Source: Phycisphaerae bacterium (GTDB taxonomy: Bacteria > Planctomycetota > Phycisphaerae > Sedimentisphaerales > Anaerobacaceae). From it: 64,000 bases of DNA. Shown piece by piece: positions 713 to 26,587 of the stretch. A program made the translations under genes and the position numbers. Position 1 is the first letter of the stretch, and every line of letters starts with the position of its first letter. The notes beneath the pieces were generated by a model. That model was not told the origin of the DNA. It did no database searches and saw only the letters and a program-made list of their open reading frames with translations. The stretch is taken from contig JAGOLX010000001.1 in the NCBI GenBank assembly GCA_017993835.1, forward strand, positions 62,001 to 126,000, given 5' to 3'.

Positions 713-3195
713 TCCGTTGCGACCCGCAGAATTGTAAGGGAACTCCCCGGGAACTTGTGGACGAACTCGCCCTTCGCCGTCTGAATCCAACTTTCGGATG
801 GCGCCACGCGCGTCGGTTCGTCGAGACTGTTGTTGTCGGAGAGACTTGCCGACGTCAGGACAGTGACCGACGCATCCGGCTTGATGCCGTTCACGTTGCG
901 CAGGACCAGTGTGGTGGTGACCGGATCGGATGCAGTGTTGATGGCCTTGACGATCAGATCGCCACTGGCTTCGTCCCGGCCGGCGGCAGCGTAGAAGTGC
1001 TCTGTTGCGGGAGCGATCTCATCGTGGATCAACTGGCCGTCGAGGGAGCAGCGGATTCGATTGCCCGCCAACTCGATCTTCACGTCGTACCAGCGTCCCG
1101 TCTCGATCCGGCCCTGCACGTGCCGGCCGACGGGACTCTGGTTCAGCTCGATGGCGTGCTCGCGATTGCCCCAGCCGCCGACGTTCCACCAGTACTTGCT
1201 CTGGCCCTTGCGGCCGAAGACGACGAGGAACCCTTCGTCGCCGCGGAGCTTCCGGGCCTTGAGCGTCAGCGTGTAGCCGAACCACGTCTCGTCGCCGAAA
1301 TAGCTCAGACCCACCGCCTGGCGACCCTGGCGATAGGCTCCCTCCACGAGCGACCATTCTCCGCCGTCCGGCCTCCAGTCAGCGGAACCATTTGAAGAGT
1401 CCGATGCGTAGAGGACTTGGCCGTCCTTCTGGACGCGGATATCCTTGAACTCCGCGGAGGTGTTCCACGTGCCGACGCCGATGGCCCCCGCAACCGCCGG
1501 AGGCTCGGTTTGTTCGAGTTTCACCTCGGTGCGGACGGTGTAGCTCGGCCGGTTCAGGCTGAGGAGCTTCCAGAGATAGTATGACGCGGTGCCGAAGACT
1601 CGCGTGCCGTCGTGGTAGATCATGCCATGCCAGTCCCAGGTCCGACCGTCCACGTGGGCCAGCAGAGGCGCATAGGAGACCATTTGCACCGCGTCCGCGT
1701 TTCGCTCACAGCCCATCAGGAACACGCCTTCGGCCAGTGCCGCCAGGAGGTTGCCGCGATAGGGGCCGCCGTCCTGGCTGGTTACGGCCACCTCGCCGAG
1801 ATAGAGCGGCGCGAGACTGCGATCTCGGGTGTCGTACTCGTTGAAGCGGTTCATGAACCACGTCGGGTTGTTGTAGTAGTGCCGATCCGCGATCTGGTAG
1901 AGCCCGGCGGGCATGCGATAATACGAGAGGTCCGCCAGGTAGATCAGGTCAGGGTACTTCGCCTTCATCGCGTCGTAGATGAACCGGTATCGCTCCTCGT
2001 AGGCCCGCTCGGCGTTCTCGTTGCCGATCTCGACGTACTTGAGACCGAACGATGCGGGATGGCCCGCGTCGGCGCGGAGCTTGCCCCACTTGGAGTCGGT
2101 TGGTCCGTTGGCGTACTCGACGACGTCGAGGAAGTTGTCCCGGACCCAGTCCATCTGGTCCATGGGCACGTTCTCCAGTTGCCGGAAGATGCAGGTCTGG
2201 CCGCAGAAGCCCACCCACAAGGGCTCGGCGCCCAGGTCCTCGCAGAACTGGAGGTATTCGTAGAGCCCCATGCCATGCGTGAAGCGGTAGTTCCACGGGC
2301 CCCAGCGTTCTTCGCGATTCTCGACGGGCCCGACGGTCCGCTTCCAGTTGTACGCAGTCTCGACGGTGCCGCCTTCGACGACGCAACCGCCGGGGAAGCG
2401 GATGAACCCTGGCTTGAGGTCTGCGATCATCTGGGCGATGTCGGGACGCAAGCTGTTGCGCCGGCCCTTCCAGGTCTGGGCGGGAAACAGCGACACAAAG
2501 TCCAGCCACAGGGTGCCCTGGCTCCCTGCGAGGATGATCAGGCGGGCCTTGGACTCGGTCGCTGATGCGGTCAGTGTGGCCTTAAATTGTCTCCAGCCTT
2601 CGCCGATGCCCTCGATGTGGATGGCATCGGAGACCGCCTTGCCCGACGCGTCTGCCAGGATCGCCGACACCGCTGCAATGGAACCTTTGGCGTAGAGTGA
2701 CAATTCGTACTTCTGGCCCTGTTTGACGCCAATGCCGAAGAAGCCTCCGTTGGCCACTCCGAAGCGTCCGTCCGCGGTGGTCTCGACGTCGAGACGCAGA
2801 CAATGGCAGGACTGCTCGGTGATGCCGCCGGTGGTTTGGAGGGACATGGTCCCACGGGCGCCGCCCTCCTGGACGAGCGACCAGAAGGGGACTCCGTCGG
2901 TTGTGTAGCCGAACTGGTCGAATCCGGCGTCGTAGCCCTTGGCGTCGAGCCAACGGCCGTCTCGCAGCGTGAAGCCTTCCGGCGGGCGCGAGTCCTCGAA
3001 ACCGCGGTTGCGGATCAGCTCCGCGTACAGGCCGCCGTCCACGCCGTGATTGATTTCCTCCAGGAAGATCCCGTACATGCGAGGATTGATCGCCGGCCCC
3101 TTGTCCGCGGCGTCGATGGTGATCGTCGCGGTGCTCGCCTGGAGCGAGCCGGCCAGTAACAGAAGCGTCAGTGTCGTGAAGATGCCAGGTCGCAT
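709..3195 (-). CDS. Secreted alpha-L-arabinofuranosidase, GH51-type, with inserted concanavalin-like domain
   Basis: An 828-residue exported enzyme predicted to release terminal alpha-L-arabinofuranosyl residues from arabinan or arabinoxylan. The signal peptide is at about 1-20. The GH51 N-terminal motif 'MYGIFLEEINHGVDGG' is near 40-55, followed by a carbohydrate-binding-like beta-sandwich (about 100-240) and the catalytic barrel from about 245. The acid/base is E393 in 'EIGNEN' and the nucleophile is E468 in 'YLGEVA'; both are present. A segment at about 565-735 ('GVGTWNTSAEFKDI', 'YDVKIELAGN') looks like a DUF1080/LamG-type sandwich inserted before the C-terminal GH51 beta domain. This makes the protein longer than a typical GH51 (about 500-650 residues). 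It is the last gene of the minus-strand arabinan-type operon, 23 bp after the S9 peptidase gene. The family call is strong; exact substrate is inferred. Confidence 0.9.
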   Translation of the reverse strand: MRPGIFTTLTLLLLAGSLQASTATITIDAADKGPAINPRMYGIFLEEINHGVDGGLYAELIRNRGFEDSRPPEGFTLRDGRWLDAKGYDAGFDQFGYTTDGVPFWSLVQEGGARGTMSLQTTGGITEQSCHCLRLDVETTADGRFGVANGGFFGIGVKQGQKYELSLYAKGSIAAVSAILADASGKAVSDAIHIEGIGEGWRQFKATLTASATESKARLIILAGSQGTLWLDFVSLFPAQTWKGRRNSLRPDIAQMIADLKPGFIRFPGGCVVEGGTVETAYNWKRTVGPVENREERWGPWNYRFTHGMGLYEYLQFCEDLGAEPLWVGFCGQTCIFRQLENVPMDQMDWVRDNFLDVVEYANGPTDSKWGKLRADAGHPASFGLKYVEIGNENAERAYEERYRFIYDAMKAKYPDLIYLADLSYYRMPAGLYQIADRHYYNNPTWFMNRFNEYDTRDRSLAPLYLGEVAVTSQDGGPYRGNLLAALAEGVFLMGCERNADAVQMVSYAPLLAHVDGRTWDWHGMIYHDGTRVFGTASYYLWKLLSLNRPSYTVRTEVKLEQTEPPAVAGAIGVGTWNTSAEFKDIRVQKDGQVLYASDSSNGSADWRPDGGEWSLVEGAYRQGRQAVGLSYFGDETWFGYTLTLKARKLRGDEGFLVVFGRKGQSKYWWNVGGWGNREHAIELNQSPVGRHVQGRIETGRWYDVKIELAGNRIRCSLDGQLIHDEIAPATEHFYAAAGRDEASGDLIVKAINTASDPVTTTLVLRNVNGIKPDASVTVLTSASLSDNNSLDEPTRVAPSESWIQTAKGEFVHKFPGSSLTILRVATD

Positions 3196-3218
3196 TGTCG
3201 TCGTCTCACTCTTGCGGT

Positions 3219-5507
3219 TCAGTTAGCGTTTCGGTCAGGCGGCTCGATGCCGAGCAGGTGACGGACGAAGAAATCCTCCATCCGTCGCTGGCCGTAGGCG
3301 CCGCCCAGGCCATGGCCCATGCCAGGGACGACGACCAGGTCGAAGTCCTTGTTTGCCTTGATGAGGGCGTCCACAAACCGCATCGTCGATTCCACCGGGA
3401 CGTTGTCGTCCAGTTCGCCGACGATCAGAAGCAGTTTGCCTCGCAGGCGGGCGGCGTTCTCGATGTTGGAGTTCTCCGCGTACCATTGCCCGACGGGATA
3501 GCCCATCCACTGCTCGTTCCAGGAGGCCTTGTCCATGCGGTTGTCGTGGCACCCGCAGCCGGCTGCGGCGACCTTGTAGAATTCGGGATGGAACAGCAGC
3601 GCCCCCGCGGCGTTTTGTCCGCCGGCGGAACCGCCGTAGACGCCCACGCGAGTGGTGTCGTACCAGGGGTACTTGGCCGCCACCGCCTGATGCCACAGGA
3701 TGCGGTCGGGCAGACCCGCGTCCTTGAGATTGTGCCAGCAGACGTCGTGGAAGGCCTTCGAGCGGAAGGCGGTGCCCATGCCGTCGATCTGGACGACGAC
3801 GAAGCCCAGGTCCGTGAGAGAGGTGAATCGAGAGAAGGGACTGAAGCTCTTGGGCACGTACGCGCTCTGCGGTCCGGCGTAGATCTGCTCGATCACCGGG
3901 TACTTCTTGGCCGGGTCGAAGTCTTTGGGCCGGCAGATGGTGCCCCAGATGTCGGTCTTGCCGTCGCGTCCCTTGGCGACGAAGACCTCCGGGCCGGTCC
4001 AACCTTTAGCGACCAGCTCGCTGATCTCCGCCTTCTCCAGCGGACAGACCAGCGAACCATCCGAGGCCCGGCGCAGCTCGTGTACCGGCGGCGTGTCCAC
4101 CCGGCTGTAGGTGTCGATCAGGTACTTGCGATCCGGCGAGTACTGGATCGAGTGACTGCCGTTCCCCTCGGTCAACGCCACGAGCCCCGTGCCGTCGAAA
4201 TTGACGCGGTAGTAGTGGACAAAGTACGGGTCCTGATCGGCGTTTTGGCCGCCGGCCTGGAACCAGATCTGCTTGGCATCTTCATCGATGCGGTCGATGC
4301 CGCGAACGACCCACTCACCCTGGGTGATCTGATCGCGGATCTCGCCCCTGGCGGCGTCGATGTAGTAGAGGTGCCGCCAGCCATCCCGCTCGGAAGCGTA
4401 GATCAGATCGTCGCTCTTGTCCAACCATGTCACAATCGAGAGGCCCAGGTTCTCCGTGTGGGCGGTCCAGATGAAGGTCTCCGTCCGCTCGTCGATGAGG
4501 TTGCGGGCCTGGCCGGTGTGGGAATCGACCTCGATGACGCGGAACCGTTGGTGGCCGCGATCGATCTTCTCGTATGCGAAATGCCGCTGGTCCTTGCGCC
4601 AATGAAGACGCGGCCTCTCCCAGTCCAGTTCGAGCTTGTCCACCTCGGGCTTGATCTGCTTGCAGCTGGCGATGTTGAACAGGTTCAGTTCGTACGTCGC
4701 GAACTTGTCCCCCGGCAGGGCGTAGGGCCGGCTGGAGAACTTCGCCCGACCGCCGCCGGCGGGGGAGGACTCGACCAGATACACCTCCTTGTTGTCGCCC
4801 GGCTCGACGCGGAAGGCCACCAGCGTCTGCGAATCGGGCGCCCACGCCAGCAGGTCATAGGCGCCGTTCTCGGCGCCGTCGGTGCTGAGCTGGACCTCCT
4901 CGCCGCCTTCGCGGGCTCTGAGGAACACGTTGTGATCCTTGACGAGGGCGCTCCACTTGCCGTCGGGCGAATCGGGAGACGGGCCTCGGTCCTCGCCCTC
5001 CGGTCTCCGCGGGCGTCGTCCGAACGGCGGGCCCTCCCGGTCCGGACCCGAGGAGTCCGACATCGTGGCACTCGACTTGACACACGCGTAGGAGGCCAGA
5101 TGGCATTCCCAGGTCGTCTGTTCCACTAAGAACCGGACCGTCTTGCCGTCGTCCGGGAACTCGATGGCGTCGAAGGGCAGTTGGCCGGCCTCGTATTCGG
5201 CGCCAACGGCCTGCGACAAGGCGGCGGCCAGCTTGGCATGGTCAAAGGCACGTTGTCGTGTCCCTTGTTCCGCGTCCACCAGGATGAACTCCTTGGCGTT
5301 GCCGGTCAGATCATTGCGGTACCAGAAGCACTTGTTCTCGTTGAACCACCTCGGGGAGATCCGACCCTTGTAGTACCCCTCGACCCGGCGGGGCGGCCCG
5401 AATCGGCCTTGTGGCGATGCCTGCGGCGCGCCGGCGGCACCCGACGCAGCGAAGAGTGCCATGGTCAAGGTCATTCCAATCGATCTGATGCGTGGGGTGA
5501 CAGTCAT
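3219..5507 (-). CDS. Exported S9 family prolyl oligopeptidase (dipeptidyl peptidase IV type)
   Basis: A 762-residue serine peptidase with an N-terminal signal peptide (about 1-26), a beta-propeller of the DPP-IV N-terminal type (about 70-520) and a C-terminal alpha/beta-hydrolase domain. The triad is visible: S627 in 'GVYGGSAGGQ', D700 in 'GELDDNVP' and H732 in 'GMGHGLGG', matching the family order and the DDN motif of DPP-IV. It should cleave short peptides, often after proline, outside the cytoplasm. The start is supported by 'GAGGAAGACG' just before the ATG. It sits between GH127 (21 bp) and GH51 (23 bp) in the operon, so it may act on glycoproteins such as arabinose-decorated plant or algal hydroxyproline-rich proteins. 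That link is inference only; S9 enzymes are common in planctomycetal sugar loci. Confidence 0.9.
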   Translation of the reverse strand: MTVTPRIRSIGMTLTMALFAASGAAGAPQASPQGRFGPPRRVEGYYKGRISPRWFNENKCFWYRNDLTGNAKEFILVDAEQGTRQRAFDHAKLAAALSQAVGAEYEAGQLPFDAIEFPDDGKTVRFLVEQTTWECHLASYACVKSSATMSDSSGPDREGPPFGRRPRRPEGEDRGPSPDSPDGKWSALVKDHNVFLRAREGGEEVQLSTDGAENGAYDLLAWAPDSQTLVAFRVEPGDNKEVYLVESSPAGGGRAKFSSRPYALPGDKFATYELNLFNIASCKQIKPEVDKLELDWERPRLHWRKDQRHFAYEKIDRGHQRFRVIEVDSHTGQARNLIDERTETFIWTAHTENLGLSIVTWLDKSDDLIYASERDGWRHLYYIDAARGEIRDQITQGEWVVRGIDRIDEDAKQIWFQAGGQNADQDPYFVHYYRVNFDGTGLVALTEGNGSHSIQYSPDRKYLIDTYSRVDTPPVHELRRASDGSLVCPLEKAEISELVAKGWTGPEVFVAKGRDGKTDIWGTICRPKDFDPAKKYPVIEQIYAGPQSAYVPKSFSPFSRFTSLTDLGFVVVQIDGMGTAFRSKAFHDVCWHNLKDAGLPDRILWHQAVAAKYPWYDTTRVGVYGGSAGGQNAAGALLFHPEFYKVAAAGCGCHDNRMDKASWNEQWMGYPVGQWYAENSNIENAARLRGKLLLIVGELDDNVPVESTMRFVDALIKANKDFDLVVVPGMGHGLGGAYGQRRMEDFFVRHLLGIEPPDRNAN

Positions 5508-21825: not shown

Positions 21826-21862
21826 GATGCCTTTCACTTCTTGAATTGAAGGAGTATTGATC

Positions 21863-23212
21863 GTGCAGGGAAGTAAGTCTGCCGGGCAATTCGCTTTTGA
21901 AGAGAGGGCCGCTGAAGCGGTCCCAAGCGTGCTCTATGAGGAGCACCTCAAGCTCACGGGCAAGGCGCACATCGCCGCCTTCGCGGGCTATCTGATGCCC
22001 TTGTGGTACTCCTCGATTGCCGAGGAGCACCGGGCAGTCCGCGAGAAGGCCGGGCTGTTCGATTGCACGCACATGGGGGTCCTGGAGGTGGAGGGCGACG
22101 ACGCGGCGACCTTCCTGGACCTCGTCAGCACGAATCGGATCACGGATCTGAAGGTCGGCCGGGCCAAGTACGGCTATGTCCTCGACGCGGCTGGGAACGT
22201 CTTGGACGACATCATCATCTACCGCCGGGGCGAAACCCGCTTCATGGTCGTCGTCAACGCGTGCAACGAGCCCAAGATCAAGTGCTATCTGAGCGAGTTG
22301 CAGGCGGGACGGGTCGTTGTTGATACGGAGAAGTCATCCTGGGGGGCGAAACTGCTCGCGCTGAAGGTGTCGATCCGCGATATGCGGGACCCGAAGCGGT
22401 CCGAGGATCGCCGGGCGGACCTGGCGTTGCAGGGGCCGGCGACGTTTGAAACGCTTGCCAAGCTGACGGATGCTCCCGCCATCCAGCGGATCTCCGAACT
22501 CAAGAGTTTCGGATTGGCCGAGGAGCGTGTGGGCGGCATCGACTGTCTGATCTGTCGGACGGGGTATACCGGATCGAACGTGGGTGTTGAACTGCTCGTC
22601 GATCCCGCGCAGGCGGCTCGCTTGTGGAATCTGGTCCTCGAAGCCGGCAGACCGTTCGGAGTTCTGCCTTGCGGCCTGGGCTCCCGCGACAGCCTGCGGA
22701 TCGAAGCGGGCCTGCCGCTCTATGGACACGAGCTGGCGGGCAAGTACAATCTCTCTCCCTTCGAGGCCGGCTACGGCTGGGCGGTGAAGCTCGACAAGGA
22801 GTTCTTCATCGGCCAGGCCGCGATGAAGCGGGAGGCGGAGACCTACGACATGGAGGTTGCCCGGGTCGAGTTGCCTGGCACGCGGGGCGTCCGCCCGATC
22901 CGACAGGACGATCCGCTGCTGCGTAGCACGGGCATCTGGCCCGTGGCGCCGAATCATGGGCGGGACGCCCATGCCACTGAGCAGGGCGAGTGCGTCGGCT
23001 GGGTGCTCAGCGCCGCGAAGGTAGAAGAGAAACAGGTTGCACTGGTCTACCTCGACCGCAAGGCCGCTATAGAAGGGACGAAGTTGGGTGTCTACTACCT
23101 GGCTCGGAGTCAGAGTCAGGCGGAGCAGGGCCGAAGGCAGGCAGTGGAAAAGGGACAGAAACTCGACGCGGACCTCGCCGGGACGGTGGCGAGCCGCTTC
23201 GCGAAGTTCTAA
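21863..23212 (+). CDS. gcvT: Aminomethyltransferase, glycine cleavage T protein
   Basis: The T protein moves the methylene group from aminomethyl-lipoyl-H protein to tetrahydrofolate, releasing ammonia. The GTG start at 21863 follows 'AAGGAG' by about nine bases and gives 449 residues, longer than the usual 360-370. Typical motifs are 'AGYLMPLWYSSIAEEHRAVR', 'GLFDCTHMGVLEVEGDDA', 'KYGYVLDAAGNVLDDIIIYR' and 'CGLGSRDSLRIEAGLPLYGH'. At residues about 353-373 ('STGIWPV...HGRDAHAT') the protein is interrupted by an in-frame double-hairpin DNA repeat, described separately, in the C-terminal barrel region. A charged C-terminal tail follows. It is first in the operon gcvT-gcvH-gcvPA-gcvPB. The family call is secure. 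Confidence 0.95.
   Translation: MQGSKSAGQFAFEERAAEAVPSVLYEEHLKLTGKAHIAAFAGYLMPLWYSSIAEEHRAVREKAGLFDCTHMGVLEVEGDDAATFLDLVSTNRITDLKVGRAKYGYVLDAAGNVLDDIIIYRRGETRFMVVVNACNEPKIKCYLSELQAGRVVVDTEKSSWGAKLLALKVSIRDMRDPKRSEDRRADLALQGPATFETLAKLTDAPAIQRISELKSFGLAEERVGGIDCLICRTGYTGSNVGVELLVDPAQAARLWNLVLEAGRPFGVLPCGLGSRDSLRIEAGLPLYGHELAGKYNLSPFEAGYGWAVKLDKEFFIGQAAMKREAETYDMEVARVELPGTRGVRPIRQDDPLLRSTGIWPVAPNHGRDAHATEQGECVGWVLSAAKVEEKQVALVYLDRKAAIEGTKLGVYYLARSQSQAEQGRRQAVEKGQKLDADLAGTVASRFAKF
22927..22973. repeat. Double-hairpin palindromic repeat inside gcvT
   Basis: Two adjacent perfect hairpins: CACGGGC/GCCCGTG (22927-22933 with 22939-22945, loop 5) and CATGGGC/GCCCATG (22955-22961 with 22967-22973, loop 5). 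They are read in-frame as part of GcvT. The structure resembles REP-type repeats and has no counterpart in standard GcvT. Confidence 0.7.
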
Positions 23213-23227
23213 CAGGAGACAGTACGC

Positions 23228-23611
23228 ATGGCAGTTGCACAAGGATTGTACTACACGAAAGACCACGAGTGGGCGAAGATCGATGGCGACACCGCCACCG
23301 TGGGGATTACCGACTACGCCCAGGAACAGTTGGGCGAGGTTGTGTTCGTCGAGCTGCCCAAGGTGGGCAAGGAATTCGGCGTTCACAAGGAATTGGCAGT
23401 GGTGGAGAGTTCGAAGGCCGCGAGCGACGTGTATTGCCCGGTGGCGGGCAAGGTCGTGGAGGTCAACTCGGATCTCGATACCCAGCCGGAACTGGTCAAC
23501 AAGGACTGCTATGGCGACGGCTGGATCTGCAAGCTTACGCTTGCCGACAAGAAGTCGCTCGGCGGTCTGATGGACGCCCCAAAATACGAGGAATACCTTA
23601 AGACGCTCTGA
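23228..23611 (+). CDS. gcvH: Glycine cleavage system H protein
   Basis: A 127-residue lipoyl carrier, the normal length for the family. It shuttles the aminomethyl group between the P and T proteins. Conserved features are 'YYTKDHEWAKIDGDTATVGI', 'AQEQLGEVVFVELPKVG' and the lipoylation motif 'VVESSKAASD' with K63. The start is preceded by 'AGGAGACAGTACGC', and the gene follows gcvT by 15 bp. No lipoate ligase, LipA or dihydrolipoamide dehydrogenase is visible in the window, so these must be elsewhere. A 199-bp gap with an AT-rich inverted repeat separates it from gcvPA. Confidence 0.97.
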   Translation: MAVAQGLYYTKDHEWAKIDGDTATVGITDYAQEQLGEVVFVELPKVGKEFGVHKELAVVESSKAASDVYCPVAGKVVEVNSDLDTQPELVNKDCYGDGWICKLTLADKKSLGGLMDAPKYEEYLKTL

Positions 23612-23810: not shown

Positions 23811-25142
23811 ATGGAATTCATTCCCCACACGGCCGAACAGCGCAAGGAGATGCTTGCCGCGATCGGCCTGACGATGGACGACCTGTTCGGCGACATCCCG
23901 CCAGAACTGGTGGCCAAGTCCTTCCATTTGCCGCACGGGCTCAGCGAGCAGGAGGTCCGCAATCGGCTGGCCGACCTGGCGGGCAAGAACTCGATCGATC
24001 TGACGCTCTTCCTGGGCGGCGGGTTCTACGATCATTTCATCCCCTCCACGGTCTACTCGATCACCTCCCGCAGCGAGTTTTACACGGCCTATACGCCGTA
24101 CCAGCCGGAGATCTCGCAGGGCACGCTCCAGGCCATCTACGAGTTCCAGTCGGCGATCTGCCGGCTCACGGAGATGGAGGTCTCGAATGCCTCGCTCTAT
24201 GACGGCGGTACCGCCCTCTATGAAGCGATGATGATGGCCCTCCGCTGCACGGACCGCAACAAGGTCATCGTGGACGACAGCGTCAACCCGATCTACCGGG
24301 TCATGCTGCACTCGTACACGCGGAACTTGAAGATTGATCTGGAAGAGACGCACTGTGAGGACGGGCTGGCGAATCGCGCCGCGATTCTCGACAAGCTCGA
24401 CGATGAGACCGCCGCGGTCATCGTGCAGAATCCGAACTTCTTCGGCTGCATCGACGACTTCACCGATCTGGCCGAGAAGGCCCACGAAAATGGGGCGCTG
24501 CTGATCGTGTCGTGCTATCCGATCTCGCTCGGGATCTTGAAGACGCCCGGCGCGATGGGCGCGGACATCGTCACCGGCGAAGGCCAGAGTCTCGGAATCC
24601 CGATGTCGTTTGGCGGGCCGTACTTGGGCTTCATGGCCTCGCGGAAGCATTACGTGCGCAAGATGCCCGGGCGGATCGTGGGCGAGACAACGGACCACCA
24701 GGGCCGACGGGCGTTCGTCCTGACCCTTCAGGCCCGCGAGCAGCACATCCGGCGGGAAAAGGCCACGTCCAATATCTGCTCCAACGAGGCGCTCTGTGCC
24801 CTGACGGCGCTGGTGTACCTGTCGCTCCTTGGCAAACGGGGGTTGAAAGAAACCGCCCAACGCTGTGCCGACAAGGCCAGCTACGCTTACCAGCGTCTGA
24901 CGGCGATTCCAGGGGTCAAGCCGCATTTCCACGCGAAGTGGTTCTTCAACGAATTCGTCTTGGACCTGCCCTGTGAAGCGGCGGATATCGTCGCCAAGCT
25001 GATCGAGCGGGGTTTCGCTGCGGGATTCCCGTTGAGCCGGTACTACAAGGGTATGGAGAATTCGCTGCTGGTCTGCGTCACGGAGAAGCGGACGAAGCAG
25101 GAAATCGGCATGTTGGCCGAGGCGTTGGAGAGTGTGCTATGA
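23811..25142 (+). CDS. gcvPA: Glycine dehydrogenase (decarboxylating) subunit 1
   Basis: A 443-residue protein, the N-terminal half-equivalent of the P protein in the split form of glycine decarboxylase. Motifs include 'MEFIPHTAEQRKEML', 'FLGGGFYDHFIPSTVYSI', 'TAYTPYQPEISQGTLQAIYE', 'NASLYDGGTALYEAMMMA', 'PNFFGCIDDF' and 'MPGRIVGETTDHQGRRAF'. With GcvPB it forms the PLP-dependent P protein that decarboxylates glycine and loads the H protein. The ribosome site is weak, and the inverted repeat lies directly upstream, so the repeat may affect expression. The stop overlaps the start of gcvPB (25139-25142, ATGA), indicating coupled translation. The call is secure. Confidence 0.97.
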   Translation: MEFIPHTAEQRKEMLAAIGLTMDDLFGDIPPELVAKSFHLPHGLSEQEVRNRLADLAGKNSIDLTLFLGGGFYDHFIPSTVYSITSRSEFYTAYTPYQPEISQGTLQAIYEFQSAICRLTEMEVSNASLYDGGTALYEAMMMALRCTDRNKVIVDDSVNPIYRVMLHSYTRNLKIDLEETHCEDGLANRAAILDKLDDETAAVIVQNPNFFGCIDDFTDLAEKAHENGALLIVSCYPISLGILKTPGAMGADIVTGEGQSLGIPMSFGGPYLGFMASRKHYVRKMPGRIVGETTDHQGRRAFVLTLQAREQHIRREKATSNICSNEALCALTALVYLSLLGKRGLKETAQRCADKASYAYQRLTAIPGVKPHFHAKWFFNEFVLDLPCEAADIVAKLIERGFAAGFPLSRYYKGMENSLLVCVTEKRTKQEIGMLAEALESVL

Positions 25143-26587
25143 AGCTTGTGTTTGAGAAGAGCGTTCCCGGACGGACGGGAGTCCTGCCGGGGCCGAGCGA
25201 TGTCCCTGAAACGATCCACATCCGAAAGAGCCTTCTTCGCGACCGCTGTGCCGCGATGCCCGAACTGAGCGAACTGGACGTGGTTCGCCATTTCACGGAG
25301 CTATCCCGCCGGAACTTTGGCGTCGATACGAACTTCTATCCGCTGGGGTCGTGCACGATGAAGTACAACCCGAAGGTGTGCGAGCGGATCGCCGCCTACC
25401 CGGGCTTCGCGCACCTCCACCCGCTGCTGCCGCAGTTGCGAATGGGCGGCATGCTCACGCAAGGCGCCCTGGCGATTCTGTACGAAATGGATCTGCTGCT
25501 CCGCGAGGTCACCGGCATGGCGGGCTTCACGATGCAGCCTATGGCTGGCGCACACGGCGAACTGACCGGCATGATGATCATGGCCGCCTACCATCGGGAC
25601 AAGGGCAACAAGAAGAGCGTCGTCCTGGCCCCCGACAGCGCCCATGGCACGAATCCCGCCAGCGCCGCGATTGCGGGCTTTCGGGTGGTGTCGATCCCGA
25701 GTAAGGAGAACGGCGACATGGACCTCGATGCCCTCAAGGCGGCAATCAACGACGAGGTCGCGGGCATCATGCTCACCTGCCCCAGCACGCTGGGCCTGTT
25801 CGATCCGCAGATCAAACAGATCTGCGACCTCGTCCACAGCGTGGATGGGCTCGCCTACTACGACGGCGCGAATCTCAACGCCATCGTGGGCAAGGCCCGG
25901 CCGGGCGATTTCGGCTTCGACATCGTCCACTTGAACCTGCACAAGACCTTTGCGACGCCTCACGGCGGTGGCGGACCGGGCGCCGGGCCCGTCGGCGTGA
26001 AGGCCAAGCTCCTGCCGTTCCTGCCGATCTCCATCGTGGTCAAACGCAACGACGGCACCTACGCCCTCGAATACGACCGACCGAGGTCCATCGGCTACAT
26101 CGCGCCATTTTACGGAAACTTCGGGATCGTCCTGCGGGCCTATGTCTACACGCTCATGCTGGGCGGCGAGGGCCTCCGCAACGTCGCGGAGACTGCGGTC
26201 CTGAACGCCAACTACATCCGCGCCAGGCTCCGCAAATACTACCAGCCTGCGGTGGATCGGGTCTGCAAGCACGAGTGTGTATTCAGCACGACGGAGAAAA
26301 TGGCCGCCAACGGCGTCCACGCTCTGGACATCGCCAAGACGCTGATCGACATGGGCTTCCATCCGCCGACGATCTACTTCCCGACGACGGTGAAGGAAGC
26401 CATGATGATCGAGCCGACGGAGTCCGAGAGCAAGGAGACCATCGACGCCTTCATCGAAGCCATGATCGAGATCGCAGGTCTGGCCGAGACCGATCCGGGC
26501 AAGCTCAAGACCGCCCCGGTCAAGGCCCCGATCTCCAGGCCGGACGAAGTCGCCGCTGCGAAGAATCTCAATATTGCGTGCCTGTGA
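25139..26587 (+). CDS. gcvPB: Glycine dehydrogenase (decarboxylating) subunit 2
   Basis: A 482-residue subunit carrying the PLP site of split glycine decarboxylase. The PLP lysine is K269 in 'NLHKTFATPHGGGGPGAGPV'. Other family motifs are 'NFGVDTNFYPLGSCTMKYNP', 'MAGFTMQPMAGAHGELTGMM', 'DSAHGTNPASAAIAGF' and 'FHPPTIYFPTTVKEAMMIEP'. Together with GcvPA, GcvH and GcvT it converts glycine plus tetrahydrofolate to CO2, ammonia and methylene-tetrahydrofolate, or runs in reverse in some anaerobes. It is the last gene of the operon and converges on the Sel1-repeat gene. Confidence 0.97.
   Translation: MKLVFEKSVPGRTGVLPGPSDVPETIHIRKSLLRDRCAAMPELSELDVVRHFTELSRRNFGVDTNFYPLGSCTMKYNPKVCERIAAYPGFAHLHPLLPQLRMGGMLTQGALAILYEMDLLLREVTGMAGFTMQPMAGAHGELTGMMIMAAYHRDKGNKKSVVLAPDSAHGTNPASAAIAGFRVVSIPSKENGDMDLDALKAAINDEVAGIMLTCPSTLGLFDPQIKQICDLVHSVDGLAYYDGANLNAIVGKARPGDFGFDIVHLNLHKTFATPHGGGGPGAGPVGVKAKLLPFLPISIVVKRNDGTYALEYDRPRSIGYIAPFYGNFGIVLRAYVYTLMLGGEGLRNVAETAVLNANYIRARLRKYYQPAVDRVCKHECVFSTTEKMAANGVHALDIAKTLIDMGFHPPTIYFPTTVKEAMMIEPTESESKETIDAFIEAMIEIAGLAETDPGKLKTAPVKAPISRPDEVAAAKNLNIACL

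Follow-up and report, generated by a model that had tools for sequence, protein, structure and literature searches.

In-frame head-to-head GTAG REP dimer in gcvT of a Phycisphaerae bacterium, and REP-associated transposases in frame inside genes of related bacteria

The gene for the glycine cleavage T-protein (gcvT) of a Phycisphaerae bacterium contains a palindromic double hairpin that is read as protein, which raises the questions of where this sequence came from and how the enzyme accommodates it. The locus lies within 64,000 nucleotides of contig JAGOLX010000001.1 (positions 62,001 to 126,000 of the forward strand), a stretch that is called the window here and to which the following coordinates refer. 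The first-pass annotation proposed that a REP-type element had landed in gcvT and was tolerated as a surface loop, and this proposal has held up. The insert is very probably a REPIN-like head-to-head dimer of GTAG REP units that arrived after the species split from its congeners, and that is tolerated owing to an open reading phase, a net change of 54 nt, and a landing site in a turn. The features of the locus are as follows.

21857..23212, plus strand: gcvT (putative start), glycine cleavage T-protein of 451 aa bearing the in-frame insert (PF01571, E 8e-72; orthologues in congeners)
22922..22978, plus strand: 57 nt coding RSTGIWPVAPNHGRDAHAT, aa 356-374, replacing 3 nt of congeners (codon alignment with 8 congeners; low AlphaFold2 confidence at 363-373)
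22923..22977: the 55-bp element, GTAGCACGGGCATCTGGCCCGTG-GCGCCGAAT-CATGGGCGGGACGCCCATGCCAC
22923..22945, plus strand: REP unit 1, a GTAG tag followed by the 7-bp hairpin CACGGGC-ATCTG-GCCCGTG, 1 mismatch to the genome REP consensus GTAGCAYGGGCRTCNYGCCCRTG
22946..22954, no strand: spacer of 9 nt separating the two REP units, read from the sequence
22955..22977, minus strand: REP unit 2, inverted, reading GTGG-CATGGGCGTCCCGCCCATG on the minus strand, 1 mismatch to the REP consensus
23228..23611, plus strand: gcvH, next in the glycine-cleavage gene run (ORF translation; name from sequence)
23811..25142, plus strand: gcvPA, glycine dehydrogenase subunit 1 (ORF translation; name from sequence)
25139..26587, plus strand: gcvPB, glycine dehydrogenase subunit 2 (ORF translation; name from sequence)

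Both reported hairpins are present, the first at 22927-22945 and the second (CATGGGCG-GGA-CGCCCATG) at 22955-22973, and together they are read as amino acids 356-374. Their description as two tandem perfect hairpins is correct as to perfection and wrong as to arrangement, as the hairpins are mutually inverted (head-to-head), with the tags GTAG and CCAC outermost. The tag of unit 1 is the GTAG of the genome consensus, and that of unit 2, GTGG, differs from it by one change. When matches to the second unit were sought at up to 3 mismatches, 1 was found in the window and 0 in 100 shuffles, and the gcvT copy is the only REP copy that the window holds. From the sequence, digestion with trypsin would yield the insert-region peptides STGIWPVAPNHGR and DAHATEQGECVGWVLSAAK.

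Outside the window the repeat is abundant, as had been anticipated, with about 100 more REP units. At up to 1 mismatch, GTAGCAYGGGCRTCNYGCCCRTG occurs 96 times on many contigs of the 6.37-Mb genome (reversed control pattern, 0), and at up to 3 mismatches it occurs 127 times (control, 2); counts across the congeners range from 0 to 360. Head-to-head dimers of 70 bp or less number 25 in the genome, the one in gcvT included, and their spacers are short and vary in length and sequence. The family thus shows a tag at the palindrome end, dispersal at high copy number, and head-to-head dimers with outer GTAG, and the gcvT element is a head-to-head dimer from the GTAG REP superfamily of Di Nocera et al. 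(2013, PMC3733652). In other nomenclature, an inverted pair of REPs around a short, diverse spacer makes it a REPIN (PMC8049555). Exact matches to the dimer pattern were encountered in named genomes of Phycisphaerae, other Planctomycetota, Verrucomicrobiota, Kiritimatiellales, Lentisphaerae, Hydrogenedentota, Sumerlaeota, Acidobacteria, and Competibacteraceae. The occurrences in distant phyla (loci L093, L096, and L105 in Competibacteraceae; L100 and L122 in Acidobacteria) suggest either horizontal spread or convergence. Another palindrome, resembling GTAGTGACGCCGTAAGGCGTTATC, often directly adjoins the REP dimers (L007, L015, L021, L027, L028).

Such hairpins could be kept for what they do as nucleic acid rather than tolerated as protein. 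REPs have been proposed as mRNA stabilizers and gyrase targets (PMC3733652), and the gcvT insert region folds better than its shuffles (z = -2.4), so that the element might be a hairpin in the gcvT-gcvH mRNA or a gyrase site retained for regulation, with the peptide as a by-product. The mid-gene position of the element and its restriction to one lineage speak against such a role, which we regard as improbable.

The proposal of a tolerated loop also draws on the predicted structure of the protein. With an alignment of 27 sequences (a run with 9 close sequences, pLDDT 42, was set aside), AlphaFold2 gave a GcvT model of mean pLDDT 88.8 and pTM 0.86 that superimposes on the T-protein of T. maritima (1wos) with Z 43.6 and rmsd 1.7 over 351 residues. 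The sole internal stretch with pLDDT below 50, residues 363-373, falls inside the insert, with strand 353-356 before it and strand 376-389 after it, and profile alignment places the insert immediately before the KNG turn of 1woo. In the model, the insert is therefore predicted to occupy the turn of a beta-hairpin in the C-terminal domain and to leave the T-protein fold intact, and the added peptide would form a disordered surface loop there. The alternative that the insert has inactivated GcvT, leaving a young pseudogene, is in keeping with a recent insertion that encodes 19 aa. Against it stand an intact frame that retains the residues conserved in congeners, the fold predicted to be intact, and the intact downstream ORFs of gcvH, gcvPA, and gcvPB in the run that gcvT heads, and loss of function is quite unlikely. 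We infer that GcvT with the insert remains active, and the insert appears to be translated and tolerated as a loop on the surface.

Comparison with relatives dates the event. Orthologues of gcvT in the 8 other genomes of the genus share 72-84% identity, and in the codon alignment all 8 lack the insert and have conserved flanks. Around the site the congener codons align with one another without gaps, with 3 nt where this gene has 57, and the protein, which had been noted as longer than usual, exceeds most congeners by exactly 54 nt (18 aa) at this point. Distant GcvT and GcvT-like proteins whose alignments cross the site also lack the insert, and one (L284) has a short extension. These alignments, which the first-pass annotation had named as the way to check its proposal, show that the insertion into gcvT is recent and postdates the split of the species from its congeners. 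Relative to the empty sites of the congeners no target-site duplication of the kind that a MITE would leave is obvious, although replacement of 3 bases makes the junction indistinct. The gcvT of the congener K_DeepCast_250m_m1_352 (G003; L042) carries another in-frame insertion elsewhere in the gene, 66 nt in the ASRLRGAGGTTATRGQGGVEAE region, which is possibly a decayed REP. In distant planctomycetes (L277-L301), GcvT-like matches lie within open frames of approximately 800-1400 aa, perhaps dimethylglycine-dehydrogenase-like fusions.

An assembly or binning artefact, with the repeat misjoined into gcvT, might be suspected in a fragmented assembly of 115 contigs, as repeats break assemblies (the gap of Ns in valS, described below, is an example). 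Yet the frame is kept, the gcvT alignment runs unbroken on either side of the insert, and other genes and assemblies carry in-frame inserts of independent origin; one of these assemblies, that of Pontiellaceae bacterium B12227, has no MAG label in its record. This explanation is highly implausible. There is next to no chance that the insert belongs natively to this GcvT clade and serves a function in it, since its being in frame and the recurrence of its peptide are outweighed by its absence from all congeners and from the distant GcvT-like proteins covering the site, and by approximately 100 dispersed copies of the same DNA in the genome.

How a REP dimer can be read through follows from its composition. 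Of the 25 head-to-head dimers, 24 are free of stop codons on both strands in the phase AGC-ACG-GGC (S-T-G), as against 20-40% in the other phases. Tolerance of the gcvT insert would thus rest on this single stop-free phase on either strand, on the net change of 54 nt, which kept the reading frame, and on a landing site at the turn of a beta-hairpin in the C-terminal domain. Most REP copies in the genome lie outside genes or at gene ends. In a codon-usage screen, about 8 of some 56-57 element clusters proved to be read through in frame. Seven are gcvT, with its conserved flanks, and alaS, DUF790, pdxB, mnmE, rsmA, and an FGE-sulfatase gene, each with domain evidence on both sides. The eighth (L053) places RNase H, REP, and PurN in one frame and is ambiguous; it is not counted as certain because PurN has its own Met and the element may be intergenic. 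In six other clusters with coding flanks on the same strand, the upstream gene stops on the element's own TAG. The loop of alaS consists of REP-derived sequence in this species and in K_DeepCast, and is a short turn in 4 other aligned congeners. Dimers of the same kind are in frame in named genomes within Mfd, an AddA/RecB-like helicase, a class II tRNA synthetase with an editing domain (ProRS-like), and fumarase. The peptide HGRDAHAT, for which the first-pass annotation suggested counterparts in other planctomycetal proteins, does recur, in DUF790, MnmE, and AlaRS of this genome and in other phyla as well.

The likely agent of mobilization can be sought among RAYTs, the HUH-tyrosine transposases tied to GTAG REPs, one of which would have copied the dimer into gcvT. 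In the closest relative, Phycisphaerales bacterium UBA2218 (entered as both G001 and G404, which share an identical RAYT and contig and are one record), a RAYT scoring above the NF047646 cut-off (L205/L222) has the gcvT-type REP family on both flanks, and the copies there match those in gcvT exactly or closely. This unit lies inside valS, where a 1334-aa ORF (L222, 531-4532) has ValRS domains on either side of an in-frame REP-RAYT-REP. Similarity of the in-frame RAYT to TnpAREP (4er8) has an E value of 4.6e-8. K_DeepCast has one RAYT in frame in valS and a second in nadE, and Sedimentisphaerales Zod_Metabat.417 (Zod417) has one in frame at the same valS site.

These cases are not restricted to the genus. 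Among 392 genomes from the phylum, 55 have a RAYT at E <= 1e-20, and of the RAYT matches listed, roughly 100 in number, about 16 lie in frames of 600-1540 aa. The genomes of the named loci were also searched for in-frame RAYTs; since presence of the dimer was the reason for their selection, this sample is biased. Pfam host domains flank Y1_Tnp on both sides in valS (three genomes), nadE, alaS (two genomes, two genera), purH, xseA, priA, an FAD/FMN oxidoreductase, a pcnB/cca-like enzyme, and a B12-radical-SAM protein. Two-sided evidence is weaker for restriction-methylation genes and a DinG-like helicase, and in L322 and L328 a host domain was found on one side only. Beyond valS, the loci with named housekeeping hosts are as follows.

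nadE, alaS (two genera), purH, xseA, priA, and pcnB/cca: L224 (K_DeepCast, 1112-3724), L237, L242, L252, L334, L335, and L331

The TatD candidate (L325) was rejected as an insertion, as its RAYT follows a complete domain and forms a C-terminal fusion, and a 919-aa open frame (G121/L258) was dropped as likely spurious. In a separate observation, L327 and L339, from Pontiellaceae and Kiritimatiellales, carry RAYTs that are sisters (support 100/98); both host genes belong to one B12-radical-SAM family, and the RAYTs lie at different positions in them. A distinct RAYT group (L229, at C37:113000-117000 of this genome, and L228 of UBA2218) lies among a different GTAG family, GTAG-CCCAGCCGCCCCCGGCTGGG, which is itself read as peptide repeats (VAQPPPAGESWE...).

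The in-frame transposases appear to be maintained. Every in-frame RAYT extracted for the tree keeps the HUH motif MPNHVH, plus a W..[YF][DN][HR].[VIFL]R-type motif. K_DeepCast and Zod417 have valS RAYTs that are sisters in the tree (support 100/99), a relationship that suggests inheritance within valS. A comparison of the two gives pN 0.16 and pS 0.77 (difference 0.49-0.71 by bootstrap); the valS RAYT has been under purifying selection, of which the share from before insertion is not fully separable. The valS RAYT of UBA2218 groups instead with the RAYT in nadE of K_DeepCast (87/76), which makes repeated insertion at the valS site probable. Pfam matches of the 20 RAYT-containing ORFs scanned included no intein or Hint domain, and there was no sign of splicing. 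The in-frame RAYTs are presumably translated with their hosts as one unspliced polypeptide.

A cognate RAYT was also sought in the genome that carries the gcvT insert. Among its RAYT matches (PF01797 and NF047646; those fetched), none has the gcvT-type REP within 1.5 kb, and no RAYT flanked by that REP was found in the assembly. Its valS contains exactly 100 N at approximately C93:39209-39310 (L269), at the RAYT site of the UBA2218, K_DeepCast, and Zod417 genes, so the cognate RAYT may be hidden in this gap.

Taken together, the gcvT insert is a small product of a REP/RAYT family that is able to persist in coding sequence. Because the REP-RAYT-REP units of relatives are open in the same phase and lie in frame in essential genes, the family appears either to have adapted to such sequence or to have passed a selective filter for survival there. 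More broadly, though with less assurance, the balance of evidence favors the view that a REP/RAYT lineage of PVC bacteria lives in frame in coding sequence. Its stop-free REP doublets would decorate housekeeping proteins such as GcvT, and its transposase would be an inserted domain of essential enzymes (valS, alaS, nadE, purH, priA, xseA, pcnB), expressed from the host gene as a single polypeptide and hard to lose without cell death, in the manner of an intein without splicing. A read-through REPIN family lowers the cost of insertion into genes, and a RAYT locked within valS or alaS offers a concrete reason for vertical inheritance and non-loss of RAYTs; both ideas become testable. The family also shows how core enzymes can gain loops or domains from a transposon, and serves as a warning that PVC proteins with STGxxPV...HGxDAxAT-like stretches contain repeat-derived peptides.

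There are several known systems with which these elements can be compared. Inteins are in-frame mobile elements within conserved nucleic-acid and metabolism genes, and for the RAYT cases only they share the property of residing in frame, although the RAYT ORFs have neither a Hint domain nor signs of splicing. The Rickettsia palindromic elements (RPEs), to which the first-pass annotation likened the insert, are palindromic and in frame in a conserved gene that lacks the insert in relatives. The comparison stands as an analogy and fails as a family assignment, because RPE-4 and RPE-6 are assigned to CGTC-type families (PMC3733652) and the gcvT element is a GTAG-type dimer.

The closest match is with the GTAG REPs of Di Nocera et al. 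(2013), which occur in PVC bacteria, include intragenic dimers coding 20-30 aa in repair and tRNA-related genes, and supply TAG as the stop codon of genes (PMC3733652). The gcvT family shares with them the GTAG tag, the short palindrome, head-to-head dimers, many copies, intragenic dimers, and TAG stops. Intragenic GTAG-REP dimers are therefore already known, and the gcvT copy adds one more, in a new host gene and organism. What differs is the presence of RAYTs in frame inside host genes: the sections of that paper considered here treat REPtrons and intragenic REPs separately and describe no such RAYT. We found no earlier description in the open-access literature, and a survey of TnpA-Y1 proteins discarded unexpectedly long ones as gene fusions or annotation errors (PMC6006769). 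In-frame RAYTs within essential genes thus seem to be new, a claim made with caution because the open-access literature is incomplete.

The REPIN-RAYT systems of Pseudomonas and E. coli (PMC8049555) have in common with the present family two inverted REPs, a short variable spacer, approximately 100 dispersed copies, and an associated RAYT, here in a congener. The model of REPIN persistence developed for them holds that insertion into a gene destroys the gene, and needs a high fatality per insertion. Where that model takes a copy within a gene to be destructive, the dimers described here can be read through and the RAYTs reside inside genes, and the data contradict its assumption for the gcvT REP family.
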